From positions 1-22,949 of IMG/VR virus record IMGVR_UViG_3300034121_000465: DNA of 22,949 nucleotides. The stretch is one strand, 5' to 3'. The notes below the pieces were generated by a model, which searched no databases, was not told where the DNA came from, and saw nothing but the letters and a program-made list of their open reading frames with translations. The DNA is from a virus. The translations under genes and the position numbers were made by a program. This document shows, piece by piece, positions 3,384 through 18,270 of the stretch (the first letter of the stretch is position 1; each line of letters starts with the position of its first letter).

Positions 3384-4775
3384 TCAGGAGGCTAGAAGCG
3401 CGGCGGCCTCGGCGGCGCTCGGCCAGAAGTCGTAGAAGTCCGCAGTGAGCGCGCCGTTCATTGGCAGCGTTCCGGCGGCGTTGGCGTGCCCAAGCACAGC
3501 GCGCGATATACCCAACGGCATGGCAATCGTCGCGCTGCTGACACCACCAACCGAAGTGCCGAACCGGACGCCGCCGGGCGACCACGCGAGCAGCGCCGCG
3601 AAAGGCGATCCGGCGACAAAAGAACCGGATGGCGTCAGCGTCGCCGTTGTGGTGCCACCGGACACAACAAGCGCCTCCGGTTGCAGCCCGCCAGCAGGAA
3701 CCCGCGCTACGACGCGGAAGTTATCTGTGGCGTTGTCGAGTTGCAGTAAGCCCAGCGCCGTAGCGCCCGCCGCCGCGTCGTAGATGCCACGGATGACGAT
3801 GCACCCACGGCGCGGGAACTCGCCAGGGGTCCAGATCGGGACATCAACCGCCATCGAAGTTGCCGCCAGCGCGCCAACCGCCGGAAGCAAAGGCGCGGGG
3901 GGCGTCAGTAGAGCAACTTGCGCCACACCAAGACGGATGCGCGTTGATATGACGGAGGCCACCGTTGCCGCGTAGCGCAGGCGCGGCAGAAGGAAGGTGA
4001 CGCCGGTCGGCATCGTGCGGCTCACTGAAACCCGCTGCCACGCCGCGCCGGGCGTCACGGTTGATCCCGTGTGGTCGGTCGGCGACCCGCTGACGGCATA
4101 CAGGCGGTGCGTGATGGTAAGGCCTGCCGTCGCGTGCGGAAAACCGGGCTCCTGCATGTAGAAGAACGACCCGCTCCACGCCTCACCAGCCACGACAGGC
4201 AGGGATGTCGTCGCCTCGAAGTTGAGCGCGCCGCCTGTCGTCGCCGTGGATGTGCCGGCGATCTGGATGGTCACGTAGTCGATGCCCGAATCCGTGCCGG
4301 TGTCCACAATGGTCAGCGTCAGCCCATTCGACCCCGTGCCGCCACCACCAACGGACCAGTTGGTCGGCAAGGTGGATGGCGCCACCGCACCAGCCCCGCG
4401 CGGGTTGCGAATGCTGTTCGATCCGACCCCATCAATCCGCAGCGCCCGCGTTGGGTGCGAGAAGCGCGGCAAGTTCTGCCCGACTTCTGACCATGCGGTG
4501 TCAGTCGCCTGCATCAGCGCCGTTGCGGTGCTGGCGGTATGCGCCCGCGTCACGGCAACATCTGCGTCGAGAGCATCGGCCGCGACGAGCGGCAACGGCG
4601 CCGTGGTCGTCAGCCCGCCAGGCGCCCGCGCCGTCATCGTGACCAGCACAACGGCAGCGCGCGGCGATCCAGCATCGACCAGAACAGGACGCTCAAGCGC
4701 GCCCGCCTCGACGGCGTAGTCCGGCAGGCTTGCTTCGGGCAAGTAGCCATACGGGAACAGCGCGGCGTCAAGCAT
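3384..4775 (-). CDS. tail appendage protein with lectin-like beta-sandwich
   Basis: The ATG at 4775 is chosen over an in-frame TTG at 4778 because the neighbouring paralogous N-terminus begins with the same MLDAA. The product is 463 residues. After the shared N-terminal peptide (see findings) comes a region with TRAHTASTATALMQ and NLPRFSHPTRALRIDGVGSNSIRNP. This resembles the conserved segment of phage structural proteins that usually reads TRASSATYVD...TPRFDYDP...LLVE...RTN. A carbohydrate-binding or jelly-roll-like segment (about 140-280: IQIAGTSTATTGGALNFEATTS, then GAAWQRVSVSRT) and a C-terminal beta domain with WTPGEFPRRGCIVIRG follow. Such modules decorate tail fibres and often bind glycans. 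The start overlaps the previous stop as TGATG. Exact role is unknown; a minor tail or receptor-binding protein is the best inference. Confidence 0.65.
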   Translation of the reverse strand: MLDAALFPYGYLPEASLPDYAVEAGALERPVLVDAGSPRAAVVLVTMTARAPGGLTTTAPLPLVAADALDADVAVTRAHTASTATALMQATDTAWSEVGQNLPRFSHPTRALRIDGVGSNSIRNPRGAGAVAPSTLPTNWSVGGGGTGSNGLTLTIVDTGTDSGIDYVTIQIAGTSTATTGGALNFEATTSLPVVAGEAWSGSFFYMQEPGFPHATAGLTITHRLYAVSGSPTDHTGSTVTPGAAWQRVSVSRTMPTGVTFLLPRLRYAATVASVISTRIRLGVAQVALLTPPAPLLPAVGALAATSMAVDVPIWTPGEFPRRGCIVIRGIYDAAAGATALGLLQLDNATDNFRVVARVPAGGLQPEALVVSGGTTTATLTPSGSFVAGSPFAALLAWSPGGVRFGTSVGGVSSATIAMPLGISRAVLGHANAAGTLPMNGALTADFYDFWPSAAEAAALLAS

Positions 4776-5575
4776 CAAGCGCGCTCGGCGATCTGAAAGC
4801 TAAACTGCGCGCGCTGCGGCCGGTTGTAGGAGAAGCCGACATCCTCGCCGGGCCGCGTCAACGCGCCGTAGATGGATCGGCGGTTTAGCTCTGCCGCTGA
4901 AAGGTCGGTGTCCGGTATCCACAGCACATCATCGGACGGATGCACCGCGTCCAGCACAGCGCGCAGCGTGCCATCGTATTCGGATGCCAGGATGCTCGGG
5001 ACCGTCACGCGCGCATATCGCGCGTTCACCAGTCCGGCTAGACGATGCTCGGTGCGCGTGAAGGGGTTGCGGTCCAAGATGCCGGACGGCAAGCGCCCCT
5101 CGACCATGCCGAGGCCGGGACGGATTGCGAAACGGAAGGTCTCGAAAACCGCGATGTTGCCGATATCCAGCACGGCGGCGCAGTTGGTAAAACGAAACCA
5201 GACATAGCGCGCGGACAGGTCGGCGCTGCGGAGGATGGTGATCTGCCCGCGCGTGGCGTCCGGCGTCGTGGCCGTGGCGTCAATGGAGTAGTCGAACGAC
5301 GCGACGGTTGGGTCCACTTCGCTGGTGCGGAAGCGCAGCGTCTCGGCGCCCGTCAGAGTGCTGTTGACTAGCGCCATCGCGCCGAGCGTGCGAACGGCGC
5401 CGAGGTCAACGATGAACTGCACGGTATTGACGCCGTTCGGGATGAACCGCGCGCGGAGACCGGGTTGCGGGTCGAACAGGTTTTCGGTCGGCATCCCGCT
5501 TTCGTTGGTGCCGGTCCACATGGACACAGATGCGCCGTCACGCATCCAGTCACGCCAGCCGATTGCGCCTGCCAT
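4775..5575 (-). CDS. tail protein with F5/8-type (discoidin-like) domain
   Basis: A 266-residue protein. Residues about 14-150 read like a galactose-binding/discoidin-like beta-sandwich: SMWTGTNESGMPTENLFD, VQFIVDLGAVRTLGAMALVN and YVWFRFTN are the usual strands of that fold. The C-terminal part (about 160-266), with DDVLWIPDTDLSAAELNRRSIYGAL and a YNRPQRAQFSF ending, resembles by eye a domain found in tail proteins of alphaproteobacterial phages. It lies between the probable tail hub gene, which stops three bases before its ATG, and the lectin-like appendage gene, which overlaps its stop. A structural part of the tail tip is likely; whether the sandwich binds sugar or only protein partners is not visible. 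Confidence 0.65.
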   Translation of the reverse strand: MAGAIGWRDWMRDGASVSMWTGTNESGMPTENLFDPQPGLRARFIPNGVNTVQFIVDLGAVRTLGAMALVNSTLTGAETLRFRTSEVDPTVASFDYSIDATATTPDATRGQITILRSADLSARYVWFRFTNCAAVLDIGNIAVFETFRFAIRPGLGMVEGRLPSGILDRNPFTRTEHRLAGLVNARYARVTVPSILASEYDGTLRAVLDAVHPSDDVLWIPDTDLSAAELNRRSIYGALTRPGEDVGFSYNRPQRAQFSFQIAERA

Positions 5576-5578
5576 GGG

Positions 5579-7150
5579 CTAGCCCCCGCTTCCGACCAGC
5601 GTCACCGTTATTCGGCGCCGCTGCTGATCCTCGCGCATCGCGACCACGACGCCGGTAAAGCCCGCATCCAGACCATATCCGGGATAGGTAATGCATCCTA
5701 CGTCGCCCATGTTCAGCACATGCAGGTAGCGATCTGTCGTGATCGAAACCGCCCGCGCGCCACCCTCAAGCCATGTGCCGATGATCTCTGCCCGCGCCTG
5801 CGCCGCCGTTTCGTCCGCATAGACGGCAGGCAGTCGCAACACGCGCGCTTGCGCGACACGCTGCGATATCAACCCTGACGTGTAGATTGCTACAGGCGAC
5901 ACGCCATCAACGAGGCGCTGCCACAGGTCGCTGTCGGCGCCGGCTGCGATGTCAGAAATAGGCGCAGCGTTCGCGCCCCAACCGACTTGAACCTCATACG
6001 GCGCCGGGGCCAACAGGTCCGGCAGCGACACAGGCTCAGGCTCCGCGACCACGCCAGACGCGGGGATGTCGAACTGCATCGTTTGGTCGGACGTGAACGG
6101 GTCGAACAGCCGCATCTTGCCCGCCCGGTCGCCGCACAGCACGGCGCCGCAACCGCCAAGCACACGCTGCACGGCGTCGAGCGTGCGGGTATCCGTGGCG
6201 CCCTGATAGAACCCAACCTCGCCCGGCAAGTCAGCCTCGGCGAACAGCCACGACGTAGCGTCGCGATCCGCGCTCACCATCTGCGGCCCGAGCGTGCTGC
6301 ACAGCGCCCAAATGATCGCAGGAACCGTGTTAGGAAAACCGTCCGCTTCGCCGCGCACGCCGCACGTCACCGAACCGTCTGGCGTCGATCCAAGTTGGAA
6401 CACGCCTAGCGCCGGATAGTCGCGGAACTCGGACACGCCCGGCGCCGTGATGGTCGGCGTCTGCTCTACGCCACGGATGCGCACCGCGTCATGGGCGACA
6501 ACGGCGCGCCAATGGGTCTGGAACGTCGGCAACGCGCCGTCGCCTAGGTCCACATCGCCGAGGTAGACGGGAGCCACGTTGAACACGCGCCCCATGCAGA
6601 CCGGCATGGGCCGATCCGCCAGCGCCGCCGAGCCTTGCAAGCCCCCTGCCCCGCTGTAGCGGAGAGGCTGTAGGGCGTCCTCAAGGCGCGCCGTGGGATC
6701 GGTAAGGGAAACCCGCGCCCGACGCCCTGCAAGCCTCTCCACGCGCCGCACAGTGCCGCGCCAGGCCAGCACGGTATCGCGCAACGGCGTGCCAAAGTCT
6801 GACGCGCGCGGGTCCAGCACTGCGGCGACGCGGATTTCAACGTCTCGACCGTCTGCTGTGCTATAGCGCGCGAGGTCTGCCGACCAGTTGTCTTGATCGG
6901 CAACGACCAGTTCCGCCGCCGTCAGCGCCACCACGCCGCCAACGCCAATGCCGCCGAGAATGTCTTGCGCAACCTCGACATCGCCAAGGATGCGCGGAGG
7001 CCACGCGGTTGACGGTGGCTCGTCAACCGTATCCGAGTGCCACGCCGCCGTGGCGAAGCGGAGCGAGGTTTCGGCCTGATCCTCGATGGCCCATGCCGGC
7101 AGGGTCGCTTCCGGCAGGTAGCCATACGGAAAGAAGGCCGCGTCGAGCAT
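5579..7150 (-). CDS. probable tail-tip hub protein
   Basis: A 523-residue protein that starts in a TGATG overlap with the upstream gene. It begins with the peptide MLDAAFFPYGYLPEATLP, shared with the gene at 3384. The body includes GRDVEIRVAAVLDP and TVLAWRGTVRRVERLAGRRARVSLTDPTARLEDALQP, a pattern seen in phage tail-tip and hub-like proteins. Later come repeated beta-rich modules and a C-terminal SITTDRYLHVLNMGDVGCITYPGYGLDAGFTGVVV stretch of the kind found at the ends of hub domains. Position after the tape measure and before adhesion-type proteins fits a hub onto which the tip is built. No enzymatic motif is recognised. Function is inferred from context and general resemblance, not from a firm family match. 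Confidence 0.55.
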   Translation of the reverse strand: MLDAAFFPYGYLPEATLPAWAIEDQAETSLRFATAAWHSDTVDEPPSTAWPPRILGDVEVAQDILGGIGVGGVVALTAAELVVADQDNWSADLARYSTADGRDVEIRVAAVLDPRASDFGTPLRDTVLAWRGTVRRVERLAGRRARVSLTDPTARLEDALQPLRYSGAGGLQGSAALADRPMPVCMGRVFNVAPVYLGDVDLGDGALPTFQTHWRAVVAHDAVRIRGVEQTPTITAPGVSEFRDYPALGVFQLGSTPDGSVTCGVRGEADGFPNTVPAIIWALCSTLGPQMVSADRDATSWLFAEADLPGEVGFYQGATDTRTLDAVQRVLGGCGAVLCGDRAGKMRLFDPFTSDQTMQFDIPASGVVAEPEPVSLPDLLAPAPYEVQVGWGANAAPISDIAAGADSDLWQRLVDGVSPVAIYTSGLISQRVAQARVLRLPAVYADETAAQARAEIIGTWLEGGARAVSITTDRYLHVLNMGDVGCITYPGYGLDAGFTGVVVAMREDQQRRRITVTLVGSGG

Positions 7151-8261: not shown

Positions 8262-11200
8262 CTAAGCAGCAGCAGGCAGCAAGCGCGGCATCATCGCGGC
8301 AATCAGCGCGTTCAACCGGCCTACTTCCGTCTTGAGGTCGTTGATGACGCCCCGGCTGTCCGTGGCGTAGATGGCTGCCTCGACGTTGGTCGTTGCGTCG
8401 ATCAGGCTGGAAAGGCCGGCTGCGTCGGCGCCTGGCGCAGCGCGGCGCAGCGTGTCGGACGTGCTGTTGACGAGCGCCGCATAGCTGGCGCTGGTGCCCT
8501 CGACATCGCGAACCACCGGCAACGCGGACTGCACAACGCGGGCATACTCCGCGATCTCGGCATCGGTGGCGCCGTCCGCGAATGCACGCCCCGCCGCCGT
8601 GATGGACGCTCGCGCAGCCGCAGCGCGCGCGGCAGGGCTAAGGCCGCCAAGCCCGCCGAAGGACAGGCTCTCGAAAAGCCCGCGCGCCGTGCTGTTGCCG
8701 CTGGCCGTGACGCCGGTTGCTGCCGCAGCCTGCCGCGTGATGTTGGCACGCTCAAGCGCCTGCACCTGTTGCAACCGGTCAACCTGCGTCGCCGTGTCGC
8801 CAGCCTGCGAACCGAGTTCCGTCAACGCATCGCGGAGCGCGGTGACTTGCTGCGCAGCGCCAAGGTCGAAGTCGAGCAGCGCGGCTTCTGTGTCCATGCC
8901 CACGGCGCGGAAATACCGGGACGTGATGCCGCCTTGCAGCGCGCCAATCTGCTGGTTCTGCGCGTCGATCAGTTCCTGTTGCTGCTTGCGCTGCGCCGTC
9001 GAAAGGTTGTCGGTTGCCAAGCCAAGATCGCGCGCGCGGATGATGGCGGCGCTGAACGTGTCGTTAACCGCCTTCATGGCGGTATCGAATTGCGTCGCCG
9101 GTTCCGCCGTGGAACCAAGCACCTCATAGACACTTGTGACCCAAGCCGCCGCTTCGACAGCAGATGACACGGAGGTCATGCCGCTGATAGCGCGCATGAC
9201 GTTATCGTTGGCGCTCACAAGGTCGGCCGCGTCGTTGGAGAACGCGGCGAGCGCGCCGGCAATGTCGCGCGGGTTGTCGGACTGCCCCGAGCCGAGCGCG
9301 CCAGCTAGACCGCCTTCGCCGGAAACCTCACGGAACCGCAGGCCAGAGGCGGATAGCTGCGCGTTGAGTTGCGCGGCCTGCTGGCGTGCCTGCGCCAGCA
9401 CAGCTTCGCGCGCGCCGTCCTGCTCGCCCTTGCCGCTGTACCCCGAGACTTCGACCTGGCCTTGCGCGTTGATGCGCAACAGCGCGTCGCCACCTTCAAA
9501 GCCTTTGCCGGGGCCAATCAGCCCGCCAAGCAGCCCGCCGCCAGCGCCGCCGAGCAGCCCGCCAGCAAGCGTGCCAATGCCGGGGATAATGCTGCCGATC
9601 AGCGCGCCGGCCAGGGCGCCGCCGCCCGACCCGAGCATGCCGTTCGTCTGGCGCGCGGGGCTGGTCGCCGTTAGCGCGGACAGCATCGACCCGAGCGCGA
9701 AACCGCCACCGACGCCGCCAAGCGCGCCGCCGATGCTGATCGGGTTCGACGCGAAGCTGTGCGTCGTGCCGATGCCGAACAGGCTACCGCCCTGCGTCAG
9801 CCCAACGCTTTCAGCCAAGCCGCCAAAGCCGCCGCCGGGGAGGAAGCTAGTCAGGCCGCTAAGGATGCCGGCGCCCGAACCCGCGCCGCTCGTGGCGCCA
9901 GTGAAGCCGACAGCGCCAGCCAGTTCGCGAACAAGCGGCTGCATGACCGTGAGCGAAAGCGCCTCAACCGCCGCGCGCCGCAGGATCGAACCGAAACCGG
10001 AGGCGAGCGACTGAAACACGCTCTCGCCACGAACCGCGCCGGCTTCTAAGGCGTTGAAGGTCACATCAGCGAGGCTGTCGCCAAACCGCTGCACCGTCGC
10101 GTCAAGGCGGCGCGCGTTGGCGTCTGCCTCGCGCTGCACTTCGGTCGCGAGGCGTTCCGCTGCGCGCCGTTCGTTCGCCGCGTTGCGATCCGTGATGGTC
10201 TGAATACCAGACATCGGAAACACGGTCTGGTTGGGATTGTCCGCTTGCTCGTAGACAATCGCCTCACGAACCTGACGCAGCCCGGAGGCCGCGCGCGGGG
10301 CGCTATCGGCCAGCCGGCGCAAGGCTTCGTCGCGCTCACGGTCGGCGGCGGCGCGGAGGCGCTGCGCCTCGGCTTCGTCAATGCCGCCCTGCGTCGTGCC
10401 GCGCGCAAGTTGTTCGCCAATCGCAGCAACGGCGCGCGCATGGGTCTCGCGAACGCCGCGCTCACGGTCGTAGGCAGTGCGCAGGGACGCAAGGCCATCA
10501 TCCGCCTGCCGGCGTTGGTTCGTCGCTGCGCGTTCCGCAGCCTGCGCACGCTCGTATTCCGCGCGCGATGCGCCTTCGCGCTCAAGGTTGATGCGGTTTA
10601 GGATCGCCGCTTCAAGAATTTCGTTCTCGCGGGCAACCTGCGCTTGCAGTTCCGCGACGCGGGCTTCCTGCGTGCCGGCCGCCGCCGCCTGCAACCCGCC
10701 TTGGATGCTGCCGCGCCGCGTACCGTTGCGAATGCCCGGCTCGAACAGATTGAGTTGCTGTTCCAGCACACGAAGGCGCGATTGAGACGCGGCTTCGTCA
10801 GCGCGGGCATCCTCAATCGGCGTGCGACCGAGGCCGGCAGAACGCCGAACACCATCAACGGCGGAAGCTGCGGCATTGACGGCGCGCGCGATGGCCTGCG
10901 AAAGCCCTAGCGCCTTATCCAAATCGGCAGCGAACCGCGTCATCGCGGCCCCAAGCGTCTCAAACGCCCGGCCCATCGTGGGCGGCAGCTTCTCGAACTC
11001 GGCGTTGATCTGCTCACCAGCGCGCAGCAAGGCCGGCAACACGCGGTCGGCCGTCAACTGGCCTTCCGAACCCATCTTGCGGAGTTCGCCAACGCTAACG
11101 CCCAACTCGCGCGCCAGCGCAACGGCGAGGTTGGGCATGTTCTCAAGCAGCGAGCGCAGTTCGTCGCCCTGCAACACGCCGGACGCCAGCGCCTGCGCCA

Positions 11201-11789
11201 ACTGGCCAGCAGCGGCGCTCGCTTCCTGTCCGGACGAACCCGCTACCAGCGCCGCGCGCTGTAGGGTCGCGACAAGCTGCAACGCCTGTTCGTTGGTGCC
11301 GCCGACTTCGCGCGTTGCAATCGAGAACCGCTGAAACGCGCCCGCCGTCTCCGCGACACTGACGCCGGTTTGCAGGCTGATCCGATAGAGCCGGTCGTAG
11401 ATGTCAACCGCCGACTGCACCGAACCCGTCGCGCTGGCCAGCCGGCCTAGCGTCGCCGTCATCTCGTCGCCGGCACGCGCAACGCTGGTCGCGGCTAGAG
11501 CAATGCCACCAAGGCCAGCAGCCGCAGCCGCGCCTGCCACGCCGAGAGAGGACAACCCCGCGCCAATGGGGCCTAGGCGGCTTCCCATGGCTTCCAAAGA
11601 CCGCGTTACGTCTTGCGTAACCGTCCCCACCGCCGAGAGGCTGCCGCCCCTCTGGGCGGCGCGCATAGCCGCCGCATCCAGCTTCTTGAGCGCGCTTTCG
11701 CCAACGTCGCCCATGGCGAGCAGGTCACGGCGCAACTGGTCCGCGCCGTTGACGCTCAGTGAAAGGGTAATGGCCCGCGAACCACTCAT
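8262..11789 (-). CDS. tape measure protein
   Basis: The longest gene in the window, 1175 residues. The tape-measure N-terminal domain covers about 78-260 (DEMTATLGRLASATGS, GVSVAETAGAFQRFS, then GVLQGDELRSLLENMPNLAVALARELGVSVGELRKM). A hydrophobic segment at about 78-103 is preceded by charged helix. A long alanine-, arginine- and glutamate-rich helical region follows, then a glycine-rich hydrophobic stretch (FLPGGGFGGLAESVG through LAGGLLGGAGGGLLGGLIGPG) and helical C-terminus. Tape measures span the tail tube, set tail length and are ejected with DNA. At about 0.15 nm per residue the tail would be near 170 nm if uncleaved, an estimate from the family rule. AGGGGAGG lies six bases upstream of the ATG. 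Confidence 0.95.
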   Translation of the reverse strand: MSGSRAITLSLSVNGADQLRRDLLAMGDVGESALKKLDAAAMRAAQRGGSLSAVGTVTQDVTRSLEAMGSRLGPIGAGLSSLGVAGAAAAAGLGGIALAATSVARAGDEMTATLGRLASATGSVQSAVDIYDRLYRISLQTGVSVAETAGAFQRFSIATREVGGTNEQALQLVATLQRAALVAGSSGQEASAAAGQLAQALASGVLQGDELRSLLENMPNLAVALARELGVSVGELRKMGSEGQLTADRVLPALLRAGEQINAEFEKLPPTMGRAFETLGAAMTRFAADLDKALGLSQAIARAVNAAASAVDGVRRSAGLGRTPIEDARADEAASQSRLRVLEQQLNLFEPGIRNGTRRGSIQGGLQAAAAGTQEARVAELQAQVARENEILEAAILNRINLEREGASRAEYERAQAAERAATNQRRQADDGLASLRTAYDRERGVRETHARAVAAIGEQLARGTTQGGIDEAEAQRLRAAADRERDEALRRLADSAPRAASGLRQVREAIVYEQADNPNQTVFPMSGIQTITDRNAANERRAAERLATEVQREADANARRLDATVQRFGDSLADVTFNALEAGAVRGESVFQSLASGFGSILRRAAVEALSLTVMQPLVRELAGAVGFTGATSGAGSGAGILSGLTSFLPGGGFGGLAESVGLTQGGSLFGIGTTHSFASNPISIGGALGGVGGGFALGSMLSALTATSPARQTNGMLGSGGGALAGALIGSIIPGIGTLAGGLLGGAGGGLLGGLIGPGKGFEGGDALLRINAQGQVEVSGYSGKGEQDGAREAVLAQARQQAAQLNAQLSASGLRFREVSGEGGLAGALGSGQSDNPRDIAGALAAFSNDAADLVSANDNVMRAISGMTSVSSAVEAAAWVTSVYEVLGSTAEPATQFDTAMKAVNDTFSAAIIRARDLGLATDNLSTAQRKQQQELIDAQNQQIGALQGGITSRYFRAVGMDTEAALLDFDLGAAQQVTALRDALTELGSQAGDTATQVDRLQQVQALERANITRQAAAATGVTASGNSTARGLFESLSFGGLGGLSPAARAAAARASITAAGRAFADGATDAEIAEYARVVQSALPVVRDVEGTSASYAALVNSTSDTLRRAAPGADAAGLSSLIDATTNVEAAIYATDSRGVINDLKTEVGRLNALIAAMMPRLLPAAA

Positions 11790-11822: not shown

Positions 11823-12577
11823 TCAGTCTTCCGGCTTGCGCTCAGACGCCCCAAGCCGGACGCCCTGCGCCGCAGCCGCCACCAGCGAGGCCGCTAGAGG
11901 CGCCTGGACGCCTTGCGCCCGCGCCATGGCTAGTGCCCCCGCAACGTCGAGTTCCGCGCCCGCCATGCCGCCCCGTAGGCACGCCATGACGGCACTCAGG
12001 ACGGCAGCGCCGTCCGGTGTCTCAGGCGCGTTGACTACAGCGGGGCAGGAGCCGCATCGCTCTTGGCTTTGCCCTTCGACGCCGGGCCAGCGGGGGGCGC
12101 CGGGGCACCCCGTGCAGCCTCGCTCGCCTCCGGAGAGGCGCCAGCGGAGGAGGCTGCGGAGTCGTTTCCCTCCGCGACCTGTTCCGCCAGGCTGCGGCCA
12201 TAGGCGGTGCGGAACGCCGGGCCGAGGTCCGGATGTTCGGCCATGGCTTCCGTAGCCGCCGGCGTCACCGGCAGCGGTTGGCCGTCATCCCCGTTGATGC
12301 CTTCCCACCGCTTGATAGCGTAGCGAGCGAGCGCGGAGATGTAGAACTGCGCGAACTGCCCATCCAGCCAAGCCGCGTTGGCGCCGTTCGGGCCGAGCGG
12401 GTCCATGGGATGGCCGGTCTTCTCTGCCGCCTCGGCTTCCACGATTAGCGCCGCCGTGCGCTTCTGCGCCTCGGCCTGCGCTGCGGAGTTGATGACGGTC
12501 GTGAGCGGCCGAACTTCGACCTTCACGCCGTAAGGCAGCACCAGCCATTGCGGCTGGCGGTTGAGGTTGAGCTTCAT
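11823..12577 (-). CDS. tail assembly chaperone GT, predicted -1 frameshift product
   Basis: Predicted fusion of 251 residues: the first 138 codons of the G gene, a -1 slip on GGGAAAC at 12170-12164, then 113 codons in the -1 frame to the TGA at 11823-11825. The -1 frame has no stop between the slip site and that TGA. Past the G stop the extra frame reads like real protein (DGAAVLSAVMACLRGGMAGAELDVAGALAMARAQGVQAPLAASL), and its nearest ATG (11987) would give only 54 residues and cut into that coding-like part. In lambda-like siphophages the G and GT products bind the tape measure and tail tube during assembly, and GT is made by exactly this slip. The stretch right after the slip is unusually rich in R, C and W, as expected of a dual-coded linker. 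Confidence 0.75.
12035..12577 (-). CDS. tail assembly chaperone G
   Basis: A 180-residue protein between tail tube and tape measure genes, the usual place for the G chaperone. It opens with MKLNLNRQPQWLVLPYGVKVEVRPLTT, a beta-hairpin-like start typical of phage tail assembly chaperones, followed by helices (INSAAQAEAQKRTAALIVEAEAAEK, WLDGQFAQFYISALARYAIKRW) that include a small domain ending at about residue 138. The last 42 residues are an A/S/P/G/K linker and overlap the frameshifted T reading frame. AAGGA lies about ten bases before the ATG. The 0-frame stop is the TAG at 12035-12037. The role comes from position, length and the accompanying frameshift signal more than from a sharp sequence motif. 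Confidence 0.8.
   Translation of the reverse strand: MKLNLNRQPQWLVLPYGVKVEVRPLTTVINSAAQAEAQKRTAALIVEAEAAEKTGHPMDPLGPNGANAAWLDGQFAQFYISALARYAIKRWEGINGDDGQPLPVTPAATEAMAEHPDLGPAFRTAYGRSLAEQVAEGNDSAASSAGASPEASEAARGAPAPPAGPASKGKAKSDAAPAPL
12114..12170 (-). promoter_or_regulatory. -1 programmed ribosomal frameshift signal
   Basis: GGGAAAC at 12170-12164 is a canonical X-XXY-YYZ heptamer and lies in the correct phase (GAG GGA AAC, codons 137-138). It is one base different from lambda's GGGAAAG. A six-nucleotide spacer (12163-12158) leads to an 8-bp stem, GCAGCCTC (12157-12150) with GAGGCTGC (12121-12114). This encloses a 6-bp hairpin, CGCCTC (12140-12135) and GAGGCG (12130-12125), with a TCCG loop of the stable UNCG type. 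Slip site, spacing and structure together match known G/GT signals. Confidence 0.75.
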
Positions 12578-12591
12578 GGCTGGGGTTGTCC

Positions 12592-13557
12592 TTACGAAGC
12601 CGAGTAGGACGCGATCTGGTTTTTGACGGTGGCCTGCATGACGCCCGTGGACGAATGCGGCCCCGCGACCCAGCGGAAGGTCTGCGTGATGCCACGCGGC
12701 CCGCTGATCGGCGCGCCCTGAGGCGTGATGTAAGTCCGGCCGAAGTTGAAGACGATTGACGTGTTGGCGTCGATGGTCCAGCCGTAGGTGATGGCGGCCG
12801 GCGACTGCGTGGCAACCGCCGCATCGTAGAGCGTGATGGTCTCAAACCGCGACGTGAACGTCCCGGACGCCGCAGCAAGGCCAAAGTCGATGTCTTCCAT
12901 GAGGTAGTCGCCACGCACGGCGGCAACCATCTCCATGTCGTTGGTAAAGGTGAAGTCGCACGACGTGATGCCGGCGAGCGTCGATCCGCTGCGGGTCAAC
13001 ACGCCCTGCGCGTTGAAGTAGCGCGCGAAGGACGTGACAACCGCCGTGCCCGCGCCCGTGCTGGCATTGGAAACCTGAGACAGCCCCATCAGGCCAACCG
13101 TCGCCTGCGCGGCGCCGTCCGGGCCGAGCGACACGCGAAGCGTGTTCGCGCGGACGCCAGCGGTGCGGATGAAAGCGTCGGTCGCAAGGTCCGCGTGCGC
13201 CACTTCCATGGAGTTGGACGGCAGCGCCGCAGATCCGGACGTGAAGACGTGCGTGTAGTTGGTGCTGCCCGAAGTGGACGGCGCGCCGCACAGCAGCCGC
13301 ATCCACCGCGCGAAATGCACCGTGTCCAGCGGAACCACAACGTCGCCCTCGACGCGGATCAGGCCGAAGAACGGATCTGCGCTGTCGCGGTTTGCGACGG
13401 CAGAGAGCAGCGCGTCTTGATCCAGGCCCTGCGTCTTGCTCATGTTGATCGAGAAGAAGGGCACTTGGTTGTAGTTCACCGACCCAACGAACGTGCCGGC
13501 GGTGACTTCGGGATACATGCGCAGCTTTGCATTGCTGCCTTGAGCTACGACGCCCAT
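12592..13557 (-). CDS. tail tube (major tail) protein
   Basis: A 321-residue protein with the pattern of the phage tail tube family: an N-terminal segment MGVVAQGSNAKLRMYPEVTAGTF, then VPFFSINMSKTQGLDQDALLSAVANRDSADPFFGLIRVEGDVVVPLD, and a C-terminal beta-rich domain ending QATVKNQIASYSAS. Tube proteins stack as hexameric rings around the tape measure to form the DNA channel. Position between the tail terminator and the G chaperone fits. AGGAG is ten bases upstream of the ATG. Length and composition are normal for the family, and no extra Ig-like domain is seen. Confidence 0.85.
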   Translation of the reverse strand: MGVVAQGSNAKLRMYPEVTAGTFVGSVNYNQVPFFSINMSKTQGLDQDALLSAVANRDSADPFFGLIRVEGDVVVPLDTVHFARWMRLLCGAPSTSGSTNYTHVFTSGSAALPSNSMEVAHADLATDAFIRTAGVRANTLRVSLGPDGAAQATVGLMGLSQVSNASTGAGTAVVTSFARYFNAQGVLTRSGSTLAGITSCDFTFTNDMEMVAAVRGDYLMEDIDFGLAAASGTFTSRFETITLYDAAVATQSPAAITYGWTIDANTSIVFNFGRTYITPQGAPISGPRGITQTFRWVAGPHSSTGVMQATVKNQIASYSAS

Positions 13558-13598: not shown

Positions 13599-14045
13599 TT
13601 ACGGGTTGTCCGTGTAGTAGGACCACGAGAAAACGAACGTCGTCGCGCCATACGCGCGGTTATAGATCGGCGCATCCGGCGCGCCGTCGTAGATGCCCCG
13701 GCCGTACTGCGCCGCGTCTGGCGTCCAGCCGATCAACGACGCGAACAGCGCATCCCTCGCGTTCAACAGCCGCTCGCTTGCATCCTGCCCGGTCTGGTCG
13801 GTCGTGCCGCTCACGATGACGGTGATCGAGAACGTCGTCTCAATCTGGTCGCTCATCGTGTCTAGCTCTTGGTCGTCGGCCGGCGCATCGCCTTCCCACA
13901 CGACATAGGCGCAAGGCACGGCAAGCCCAGCCTTCGCCTCGACCAGCTTATCAAGCGCATCGTCGCGCCCAATCAGCCCGGCAACACGCGTGCTGAAGAA
14001 CGTGCAATCCGTCCGCAGCCGCTCAATGATCGCAGCGGGGCGCAT
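13599..14045 (-). CDS. tail terminator (gp37/gpU-type) protein
   Basis: A 148-residue protein between the gp10-type neck protein and the tail tube. It has an N-terminal helical part (IIERLRTDCTFFSTRVAGLIGRDDALDKL) and a strand PCAYVVWEGDAPADD. A central beta-strand TFSITVIVSGTTDQTGQDASERLLNARDALFASLIGWTPD and a final strand TTFVFSWSYYTDNP complete the alpha-beta pattern seen in tail terminators of the Mu gp37/lambda gpU kind. These cap the finished tube and dock it on the head. The start overlaps the gp10-type stop as TAATG. Confidence 0.65.
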   Translation of the reverse strand: MRPAAIIERLRTDCTFFSTRVAGLIGRDDALDKLVEAKAGLAVPCAYVVWEGDAPADDQELDTMSDQIETTFSITVIVSGTTDQTGQDASERLLNARDALFASLIGWTPDAAQYGRGIYDGAPDAPIYNRAYGATTFVFSWSYYTDNP

Positions 14046-16121: not shown

Positions 16122-16952
16122 TTACGGGTCGAGCGCCGCGAGTAGTGTGTCGGGATACTGCTCCAAAATGCGGCGCGCCCATGCGACAAGATCGGCGGGA
16201 CGTTGGCCGCTCGGTTGGGCAGTAACCCATAGCTCTAAATTCTCTGGCCGGTTGTCTGACCGGATGCCGTTTTTGTGGTGGACGCTTTCCGTAGGCAGGA
16301 GCGTGCGCCCGATTTTTTCAGCCATTACTGCGCGGTGCTCGTAAACCCGGCTCGTCGTGCCGGCTTTCTGCGCGTGCGATTTATCTGTCCAGTAGATATA
16401 GCCATTTTGATCAATAAGCTTGCCGCCAATATTCTGGCGCCGCAACACTAACCCGCCACGCTCAGGTGAGCCGTGTTTCATTAATCTAGCGTAATGGGCC
16501 GCACAGTAACCCCGCGCTATAGCGTAATGCCGACATTCGGCGACATCACAGTGACGCTTATTTTGCTGCTCCCTCCAAGAACGGCGCATTGGGCCGCCCC
16601 CGTTGGGGACGCCGTATTTTTTTTGGCGGTAGTAATGCGCGCAGCAATATCCTCGCGCTAGAATTGGCTTCCCGCAATCATCAACATTGCAAGGAGCAAC
16701 ACCAGTTTTAGCTGTTCGCGGCTCGGCTTTGGTCGGTCTGGAAGCCTCGATACTTCCACCACGGCGGAACCGCCGATAGTGCATATTACAAAGGCCGCGC
16801 CTTATGTCGCCGACCGACCCACACCCTGAAACGGAGCAAGCGCGGCTGTTTTGCGGCGACAACCGGCCAACATATTCAGGTGTCGTTGTGTCTTCGCACA
16901 CAAAGACGCTCAGGCGAGACGCGCTCGCCTGAGTTTCCTGCGCCAGCGACAT
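16122..16952 (-). CDS. HNH endonuclease with three zinc-finger-like repeats
   Basis: A 276-residue protein inserted directly after the capsid gene. Three repeats have the form C-x4-C-x9/10-C-x2-H: C39/C44/C55/H58, C88/C93/C103/H106 and C135/C140/C150/H153, each followed by an aromatic and basic residues (HYRRFRRGG, HYYRQKKYG, HYARLMKHG). They are likely DNA-binding zinc ribbons. The HNH domain follows: RVYEHRAVMAEKIGR at about 203-217, then SVHHKNGIRSDNRPENLELW at about 223-242. Base composition is visibly more AT-rich than neighbouring genes, including a run of eight A's (16624-16617). The ATG at 16952 is uncertain: the first 36 codons overlap a 10-bp perfect hairpin and lack conserved features. 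Likely a freestanding homing-type nuclease acting on DNA near the capsid gene. Confidence 0.8.
   Translation of the reverse strand: MSLAQETQASASRLSVFVCEDTTTPEYVGRLSPQNSRACSVSGCGSVGDIRRGLCNMHYRRFRRGGSIEASRPTKAEPRTAKTGVAPCNVDDCGKPILARGYCCAHYYRQKKYGVPNGGGPMRRSWREQQNKRHCDVAECRHYAIARGYCAAHYARLMKHGSPERGGLVLRRQNIGGKLIDQNGYIYWTDKSHAQKAGTTSRVYEHRAVMAEKIGRTLLPTESVHHKNGIRSDNRPENLELWVTAQPSGQRPADLVAWARRILEQYPDTLLAALDP
16909..16933 (-). terminator. perfect 10-bp stem-loop after capsid gene
   Basis: CTCAGGCGAG (16933-16924) pairs exactly with CTCGCCTGAG (16918-16909) around CGCGT, 30 bases past the capsid stop. A weak T-rich stretch (CGTCTTTGTG) follows, so it could act as a leaky terminator or transcript-stabilising hairpin. 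It lies within the annotated first codons of the HNH gene. Confidence 0.45.
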
Positions 16953-16962
16953 AAAGCCGCTA

Positions 16963-18264
16963 TTAGCTCCCGAACTTCAGGAGCTTAATTGCCTCGAAAT
17001 TAACCACGCCTCCACCCACACGCTTCCTGAACTTGAAGAAAACGTAAGGATAAGACGTGTACGGATCGCGCAGCACCGACAGGCCGATGCGGTCCACGAT
17101 CTGGTAGCCCTCGCGGAAGTCACCGAACGCCATCGACAGGCTCCCGGTGCCGAGCGCCGGCATGTCCTCGGCTTCCACCACCGGGAAGCCCAGCAGCGAG
17201 GAAGGCTGCCCCGCCGTCGCCGCCGGCTGCCAGATGAAGTTGCCCTGCCCGTCCTTGAGCTTGCGGGCTGCGCCCAGCACGGCGCGGTTGGTCATCCAGC
17301 GCGCATTGCCGCGATACGCGGCCTTGAGCGCGTAGATGACGCTGATCAGGTCGTCCACCGGGTTGGTGTCACCGGAGCGCGTGCGGAAAGCGCCGTTGGC
17401 GCCGGTCGCGATGTGTTCCAGTTGGCCCCAGGTCCGGGTCGCATCGGCGGTCGCGGCGGTCGTGTAGTCCGTGAAGCCACGCGGCTTGCTGATGCCGTTG
17501 CCGGACACAAAGGCGGTGTTTTCGCCGCGCGCAATGCGGTCGGCAGACTTCATCGCCAGCCACGCCTCAAGGTCGAGGCGCGCGTCTTCCAACACCTTCT
17601 GCGTGGCGCTCACGACGGACACAGCCTCGTGGACCGGGATGGACCACTTGCCAAGCTGCGCCGAGGTGTTCTCGCTGCGCGTGCCGGTCTCGCCCACCCA
17701 GGCAAAGCCGTTCTCGCCGAGGTCGGCCAGCCCTTCCACGGTGTCGGTGCCGATGGACATGACCGACGCAACCTGCCGCATGGGCGAGGTCTCGTAGATG
17801 CGCGACACGATGCGGCCGGTCGTGTCCGGCGTCACCAGATAGCCGCCGTCCGGATCGCTGCCGACGCTCATCGCCTTCGCCTCGGCATCGCCGGGGCGCG
17901 TGGTGCGGAGCGGACCCTTCATGCCGTACAGCGCGGCCTTGTAGGCGCGCAGGTCATCGACGTTGACCACGTTGCCGGTCTGCTCGCCGAACGCCTTGGC
18001 GGTCTTGGTCTCGATCTCGTCGGCCGGGCCGCCCGCCAGGTTGAGGCGGTTCGACTTGGCTTCCAGTTCGTCGGCGCGCTTGGTCGCGGCCTTGATGTCG
18101 TCGGCCACCTTGTCGAGCGCCGCGTTGATGCGGTCCAGCTTGTCGTTGGTGACGACATCGCCCTTCATCCGCTTCACCTCGGCGTCGAGGTCATTCACGG
18201 TGGACTTGAAGGCAGCGAAGGTCTCGCCCTGCTTTTCGAGCAGAGCCTTGATCTCGGGTTCCAT
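16963..18264 (-). CDS. HK97-type major capsid protein
   Basis: The ATG at 18264 is chosen over an in-frame TTG at 18270 because AGAGGA sits six bases before the ATG and would touch the TTG. The product is 433 residues. Residues 1 to about 75 are charged coiled coil (the delta, scaffold-like domain: IKALLEKQGETFAAFKSTVND through AATKRADELEAKSNRL). At about 131 the sequence changes to MSVGSDPDGGYLVTPDTTGRI, where this family is normally cleaved, leaving roughly 300 residues. The HK97 fold follows: IVSRIYETSPMRQVASVMSIGTD, SAQLGKWSIPVHEAVSVVSATQKVLEDA, TNRAVLGAARKLKDGQGNFIW, LLGFPVVEAEDMPAL and the final YPYVFFKFRKRVGGGVVNFEAIKLLKF. It builds the head shell; no separate scaffold gene is present. 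The protease gene is directly upstream. Confidence 0.95.
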   Translation of the reverse strand: MEPEIKALLEKQGETFAAFKSTVNDLDAEVKRMKGDVVTNDKLDRINAALDKVADDIKAATKRADELEAKSNRLNLAGGPADEIETKTAKAFGEQTGNVVNVDDLRAYKAALYGMKGPLRTTRPGDAEAKAMSVGSDPDGGYLVTPDTTGRIVSRIYETSPMRQVASVMSIGTDTVEGLADLGENGFAWVGETGTRSENTSAQLGKWSIPVHEAVSVVSATQKVLEDARLDLEAWLAMKSADRIARGENTAFVSGNGISKPRGFTDYTTAATADATRTWGQLEHIATGANGAFRTRSGDTNPVDDLISVIYALKAAYRGNARWMTNRAVLGAARKLKDGQGNFIWQPAATAGQPSSLLGFPVVEAEDMPALGTGSLSMAFGDFREGYQIVDRIGLSVLRDPYTSYPYVFFKFRKRVGGGVVNFEAIKLLKFGS

Positions 18265-18270
18265 AGTCAA

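Follow-up and report, generated by a model that had tools for sequence, protein, structure and literature searches.

A conserved -1 reading frame with paired cysteines joined to tail-chaperone gene G at a slippery heptamer in an IMG/VR phage contig

Gene G and the reading frames at its end

The stretch of DNA analysed here (the window) comprises the 22,949 nucleotides of the IMG/VR virus record IMGVR_UViG_3300034121_000465 and carries a tail module on its minus strand, in the order capsid gene (16966-18270), tail terminator (13602-14045), tail tube protein (12592-13557; PF18906 Phage_tube_2, E 1.1e-33), gene G (12035-12577) and tape measure protein (8262-11789; PF20155 TMP_3, E 3.4e-52). Gene G encodes a tail assembly chaperone of 180 aa when translated without frameshifting and is, by its match to phrog_313 ('Tail assembly chaperone', E 5.3e-7), a homologue of known tail chaperones. 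Its placement between the tail tube and tape measure genes is that of G/GT genes, and these neighbours are consistent with a tail chaperone of the lambda type. Further upstream, between the capsid and head-tail genes, a 276-aa open reading frame (16122-16952) has a translation resembling an HNH-type homing endonuclease (GRTLLPTESVHHKNGIRSDNRPENLELW).

The G frame opens at ATG 12577 and, close to its end, runs through the slippery heptamer GGGAAAC (12164-12170, minus strand), which direct reading places in the phase G_GGA_AAC, with GGA and AAC as G codons 137 and 138. This in-phase X_XXY_YYZ heptamer leads into an open -1 frame, here called T (11823-12170, minus strand), which would be read after slippage and which continues from 12164 without interruption for 113 codons after AAA to the TGA at 11825-11823. 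A 6-nt spacer, GACTCC (12158-12163, minus strand), separates the slip site from a nested RNA stem (12114-12157, minus strand) that is presumed to stimulate frameshifting. It consists of an 8-bp outer stem, in which GCAGCCTC (12157-12150) pairs with GAGGCTGC (12121-12114), an additional 3-bp stem, and an inner 6-bp hairpin with a UNCG-type loop, CGCCTC-UCCG-GAGGCG (12140-12125). Heptamer, spacer, nested stem and open -1 frame had all been described in the initial annotation, whose coordinates and counts proved correct on re-reading. Its statement that T is hidden from gene callers also holds, since the single usable ATG of the -1 frame (11987) would yield just 54 aa. The tail of G and the N-terminal part of T are encoded together over 43 codons (12035-12163, minus strand), an overlap that had been called unusually long; this is loosely true against a median of 30 codons in 153 distinct relatives (range 1-62), but about 7% of these have overlaps of 43 codons or more.

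A conserved -1 frame joined to G at the heptamer

Searches of a phage collection by tblastn with G or T of the window, and of genome contigs with the tape measure protein, gave no match, and relatives were instead found through the tail tube protein. Downstream of the matched tube genes, the Rhodobacter phages RcKemmy, RcMeacham and RcKvothe carry the identical GGGAAAC together with an annotated joined GT product, while Synechococcus phage Sc-Yong805-1 has AAAAAAA and an AT-rich human-gut phage contig has AAAAAAC. From the heptamer onward, the -1 frames of these phages share, with small variations, the pattern [GK]KR[IL]xxLxxWH[FW]xxG...CxxC...CxxCP. Scans of IMG/VR with alignments of these frames returned 303 and at least 471 relatives, and the same kind of scan of bacterial genomes returned 43; judged by title, almost all belong to Alphaproteobacteria. 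Several of the loci (L001, L002, L004, L005 and L007) are copies identical to the window across the region and therefore carry no evolutionary signal. The nearest relatives of the window T are L142 (57% identical) and L143 (45%), and L142 shares with the window a long spacing between the cysteine pairs.

The heptamer had been predicted to be conserved in related phages, and an X_XXY_YYZ heptamer was indeed found at the homologous place in 196 of the 197 loci examined, as AAAAAAC (165), GGGAAAC (29), AAAAAAG (1) or AAAAAAA (1). The sole non-canonical site, an imperfect AGAAAAC in L204 (2498-2504), may be a sequencing artefact or a site at which slippage is reduced. No Shine-Dalgarno-like enrichment was seen directly upstream of the heptamer in the relatives.

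Homology of T extends over its whole length. A profile built from 69 phage T frames, with the window left out, gave one significant match among the six frames of the window, namely to the -1 frame from the heptamer lysine (E 4.5e-11), and the N- and C-terminal halves of the profile, used separately, each placed this frame first (E 1.1e-4 and 5.5e-4). Together with the retention of the heptamer, this match bears out the earlier reading of the locus as a lambda-like G/GT -1 cassette.

Selection was assessed from substitutions between relatives whose overlap spans 30 codons, compared as 21 independent pairs. Within the overlap, 47.5% of substitutions are synonymous in the T (-1) frame, compared with 22.6% expected, whereas in the G (0) frame the proportion is 19.1% against 30.5% expected. 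The flanking controls behave as single coding frames, with G constrained upstream of the heptamer (57.5% vs. 24.7% expected) and T constrained downstream (59.5% vs. 25.4%), the latter being the purifying selection on the -1 frame that had been anticipated. Because the loci had been retrieved by peptides inside the overlap, the count was repeated outside those residues, with the same direction for T (36.7% vs. 26.4% and 50.0% vs. 24.2%) and for G (19.4% vs. 30.6% and 17.4% vs. 30.0%). The window itself agrees: aligned with L142 over the overlap, the T frame scores 119, compared with a maximum of 55 in 500 shuffles, whereas the G frame scores 33, against a shuffled mean of 29.6 and a maximum of 50; the same test with L143 gives 103 for T and 46 for G. 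Moreover, in 7 of the 153 distinct relatives G stops one codon past the heptamer while T is intact. Judged from sequence comparison, substitutions in the overlaps of relatives thus preserve the T frame and not the G tail, and the early stops of G together with the conservation of T identify the G tail, rather than the start of T, as the unconstrained reading. These comparisons establish that the -1 frame is conserved, is under selection and is linked to G through a slippery heptamer.

The region downstream of the heptamer also folds more stably than expected. In the window, the 60 nt past the heptamer have a minimum free energy of -35.3 kcal/mol (z -2.44; equalled in 4 of 200 shuffles), and the folding of the first 56 nt is equalled by 1.25% of the 56-nt windows of the module. 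Across 152 relatives, 56-nt segments starting 5 nt past the heptamer have a mean z of -2.05, compared with -0.11 in upstream controls and -0.01 further downstream. Most relatives form a 13-bp stem with a 6-nt loop that begins 7 nt past the heptamer, with 93.2% of cells paired. Covariation in this stem is weak (both sides changed in 2 of 13 pairs, a level reached by 26 of 500 shuffles) because the codons that form it are conserved, and synonymous codon choice was used instead. At stem position Leu7, CTG is used in 0 of 44 cases against a background of 47%; at Ala6, GCG is used in 0 of 40 against 42%; and at Gly14, GGG is used in 33 of 40 against 21%. Codon choice is thus a stronger sign of the hairpin than covariation. 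As the conserved peptide ALAEWHFGGG is encoded by the codons that contain the stem, the RNA may account for part of the peptide conservation, and amino-acid and hairpin constraints overlap in the same codons of the T family. A subgroup among L144-L218 (e.g., L152 and L164) has W-S in place of W-H after the slip site, and its hairpin loop changes from UGGCAC to UGGUCC with the stem kept. The 13-bp hairpin of the family is absent from the window, which has the different nested stem described above at nearly the same distance from the heptamer. Its nearest relatives fold moderately to weakly (L142, z -1.28; L143, z 0.14), which makes the stimulator in the subgroup of the window less certain than the heptamer.

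Cysteine module, DUF7697 and predicted fold

The post-slip stretch of T contains a C-x2-C-x16-C-x2-C(P) module (12045-12116, minus strand), a putative zinc knuckle whose cysteine codons start at 12116, 12107, 12056 and 12047. Numbered in the window from the first codon of the heptamer, the residues invariant in 62 diverse T sequences, the window included, are K2, W10, G15, all four cysteines (C19, C22, C39 and C42) and D75, and the consensus after the slip site is [GK]KRLxxLxxWxxxGG...CxxC...CxxCP. The approximately 40 post-slip codons had been interpreted as a functionally relaxed linker rich in arginine, cysteine and tryptophan; they hold instead this conserved module, and it is the G tail read over the same bases that is free of constraint. 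From the conservation of its sequence, the post-slip stretch is the start of a cysteine-rich domain missed by current protein-family databases. By pattern, its four candidate ligands in CxxC pairs correspond to those of a zinc knuckle or zinc ribbon, and the module is probably a knuckle that binds one zinc ion.

Beyond the cysteines, T of RcKemmy matches the Pfam family DUF7697 (PF24752) with an E-value of 2.9e-16. A second relative matches the family at 1.6e-15, and PHROG 11212 covers the same C-terminal part of T in relatives (E 4.4e-16). Both families are listed as of unknown function, and their models, of 52 and 55 positions, begin downstream of the cysteines, most likely because gene callers overlook the cysteine module, encoded as it is within the overlap with G. 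The corresponding part of the window T (11880-11951, minus strand) reaches E 0.024 and 15 bits against DUF7697, under the cut-off of 27; the curated model covers the C-terminal half only, and the fuller 69-sequence profile does detect the window T. An independent sample was obtained by searching 190 genomes with DUF7697 alone, the model of which includes neither heptamer nor cysteines. Of eight new loci, seven have an in-phase heptamer followed by K-R and the cysteine pattern; the eighth, L227, has a broken frame. A search of NCBIfam gave no match.

AlphaFold models of T from the window (pLDDT 86, pTM 0.78) and from L136 (pLDDT 92.9, pTM 0.85) contain a helix starting at the slip site, a cysteine loop and a helical domain, with the loop between the cysteine pairs predicted at low confidence in the window model. 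Comparison of the fold with the PDB gave insignificant matches, as did comparison of the T sequence with solved chains; given this result and the low-confidence cysteine loop, metal binding is without structural support. Among named viral proteins, the best fold matches come from the tape measure chaperones of Serratia phage Scapp (probability 0.91), Klebsiella phage Solomon (0.57) and Enterobacter phage F20 (0.54), a likeness that is suggestive only at E-values of 0.37-1.0.

Identity of T and alternative readings

The locus is very probably the G/GT tail-chaperone gene pair of an alphaproteobacterial-type siphophage, in which GT arises by a -1 slip and T comprises a helix, the cysteine module and DUF7697. 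We infer the occurrence and rate of slippage, the binding of zinc and the partner of T. Most ribosomes would produce the 180-aa G, while a minority would slip back one base at G_GGA_AAC, aided by the stem 6 nt downstream, and produce a GT of about 251 aa composed of 138 G residues and 113 T residues. T would begin at the slip site with the basic helix KRLRSLLRW, continue through the CxxC...CxxCP module, probably around one zinc ion, and end in the small helical DUF7697 domain. On the lambda model, coating of the tape measure protein would fall to the G part and recruitment of tail tube protein to the T part.

Frameshifting of this kind has long been known, and annotated GT homologues exist in Rhodobacter phages. 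In lambda, the overlap between G and T spans a few codons, compared with 43 in the window. The lambda pair likewise has a -1 slip close to the end of G, a low-abundance G-T fusion and the order tube, G, T, tape measure; its slip site is GGGAAAG rather than GGGAAAC, and no cysteine-pair module is described for lambda in the papers found, whereas the window T opens with one. In lambda, gpG as well as gpGT attaches to the tape measure protein, and the T portion makes the contact with the tail tube subunit (PMC5009743). A point against the frameshift reading is that, in the same review, AAC as the second slip codon is reported to shift less readily than AAG in E. coli. The closest annotated counterparts are chaperones 15/16 of the Rhodobacter capsulatus phage cluster RcC (RcKemmy and relatives), with homologous G and T, the same GGGAAAC and a joined product; they differ from the window in that their overlap spans 31 codons, their cysteine pairs are closely spaced and their hairpin region is canonical, and the cysteine module is not annotated as such in the RcC phage record. 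T proteins of the DUF1799/PHROG 680 type and the T1-like tape measure chaperone of phage F20 resemble T in operon position and weakly in profile, but the F20 T frame has no CxxC pairs. In L231 (approximately 1501-1719), a DUF1799-type T frame likewise has an in-phase AAAAAAC but lacks the paired cysteines beyond it, which suggests that the module is confined to the DUF7697 branch.

Two other readings concern the start of T. If the post-slip stretch were a relaxed linker, with functional T beginning only past 12035, its R/C/W-rich composition would be readily understood, as would the finding that GC content at the three codon positions fails to distinguish G from T in the overlap of the window. 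The invariant residues, however, begin at the heptamer itself (K2, W10, G15 and the cysteines), T is under selection inside the overlap, and the T alignments of the nearest relatives run through the post-slip stretch, leaving this reading with hardly any probability. Alternatively, T could be a separate 54-residue protein started at ATG 11987, the outcome that the initial annotation had named as refuting a frameshift, or could be made by reinitiation after the G stop at 12035, with the heptamer incidental. An in-frame ATG is present at 11987, and some annotated relatives give T as a short ORF starting downstream, but the nearest relatives do not retain this start: L142 has no methionine there and several T frames have none at all, so that separate translation from this codon is improbable. 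Since the conserved cysteine module lies upstream of the ATG and the heptamer is almost universally kept, this account as a whole is very unlikely.

A third reading accepts the frameshift and assigns the cysteines to disulphides, an iron-sulphur site or a structural role without metal. It draws on weak Pfam matches, below cut-off, to both an Fe-S family and a zinc-ribbon family, and on the absence of a structural match for T. Two CxxC pairs at variable spacing, the second followed by proline, in a reducing cytoplasm are nevertheless the usual pattern of zinc knuckles, and we regard a non-zinc role as the less likely alternative. A more far-reaching proposal, which we hold tentatively and consider somewhat doubtful as a whole, is that a single stretch of about 100 nt serves three purposes, as the unconstrained tail of G, as a zinc-binding domain after the slip and as the hairpin that causes the slip, making GT metal-dependent. 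If true, the metal site would occur only in the rare GT fusion and never in G, with the consequence that tail initiation might in principle respond to the supply of zinc, and the triple-use stretch would be shared by a large family whose phages and prophages are mostly alphaproteobacterial.

DUF7697 and PHROG 11212 gain a likely identity as the T half of GT, and the paired cysteines suggest a possible metal requirement for the GT chaperones of this branch. An incomplete library of literature on tail chaperones with zinc and on DUF7697 yielded no description of the cysteine module; in the databases and literature searched there was no trace of a module hidden in the overlap or of a link between DUF7697/PHROG 11212 and GT, an absence that is not proof of novelty. 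The cysteine module marks the DUF7697-type T family. Annotation of T is now feasible for several hundred contigs of phages, with at least 471 relatives confirmed by a single scan.

Two further observations concern the tail operons of relatives. The tail tube protein of L008 (2992-3930; OP858991) is labelled as the site-specific tyrosine recombinase XerD, probably a misannotation since it aligns to the tube protein of the window with an E-value of 8e-42. In the gut phage contig loci L012 (approximately 4005-6296) and L016 (MT836000), extra ORFs lie between the tail tube gene and G/T, named from reading their translations as thioredoxin-like, CcdA-like, ArsR-type and permease-like; they may be a cargo insert in the tail operon or the result of an assembly join.
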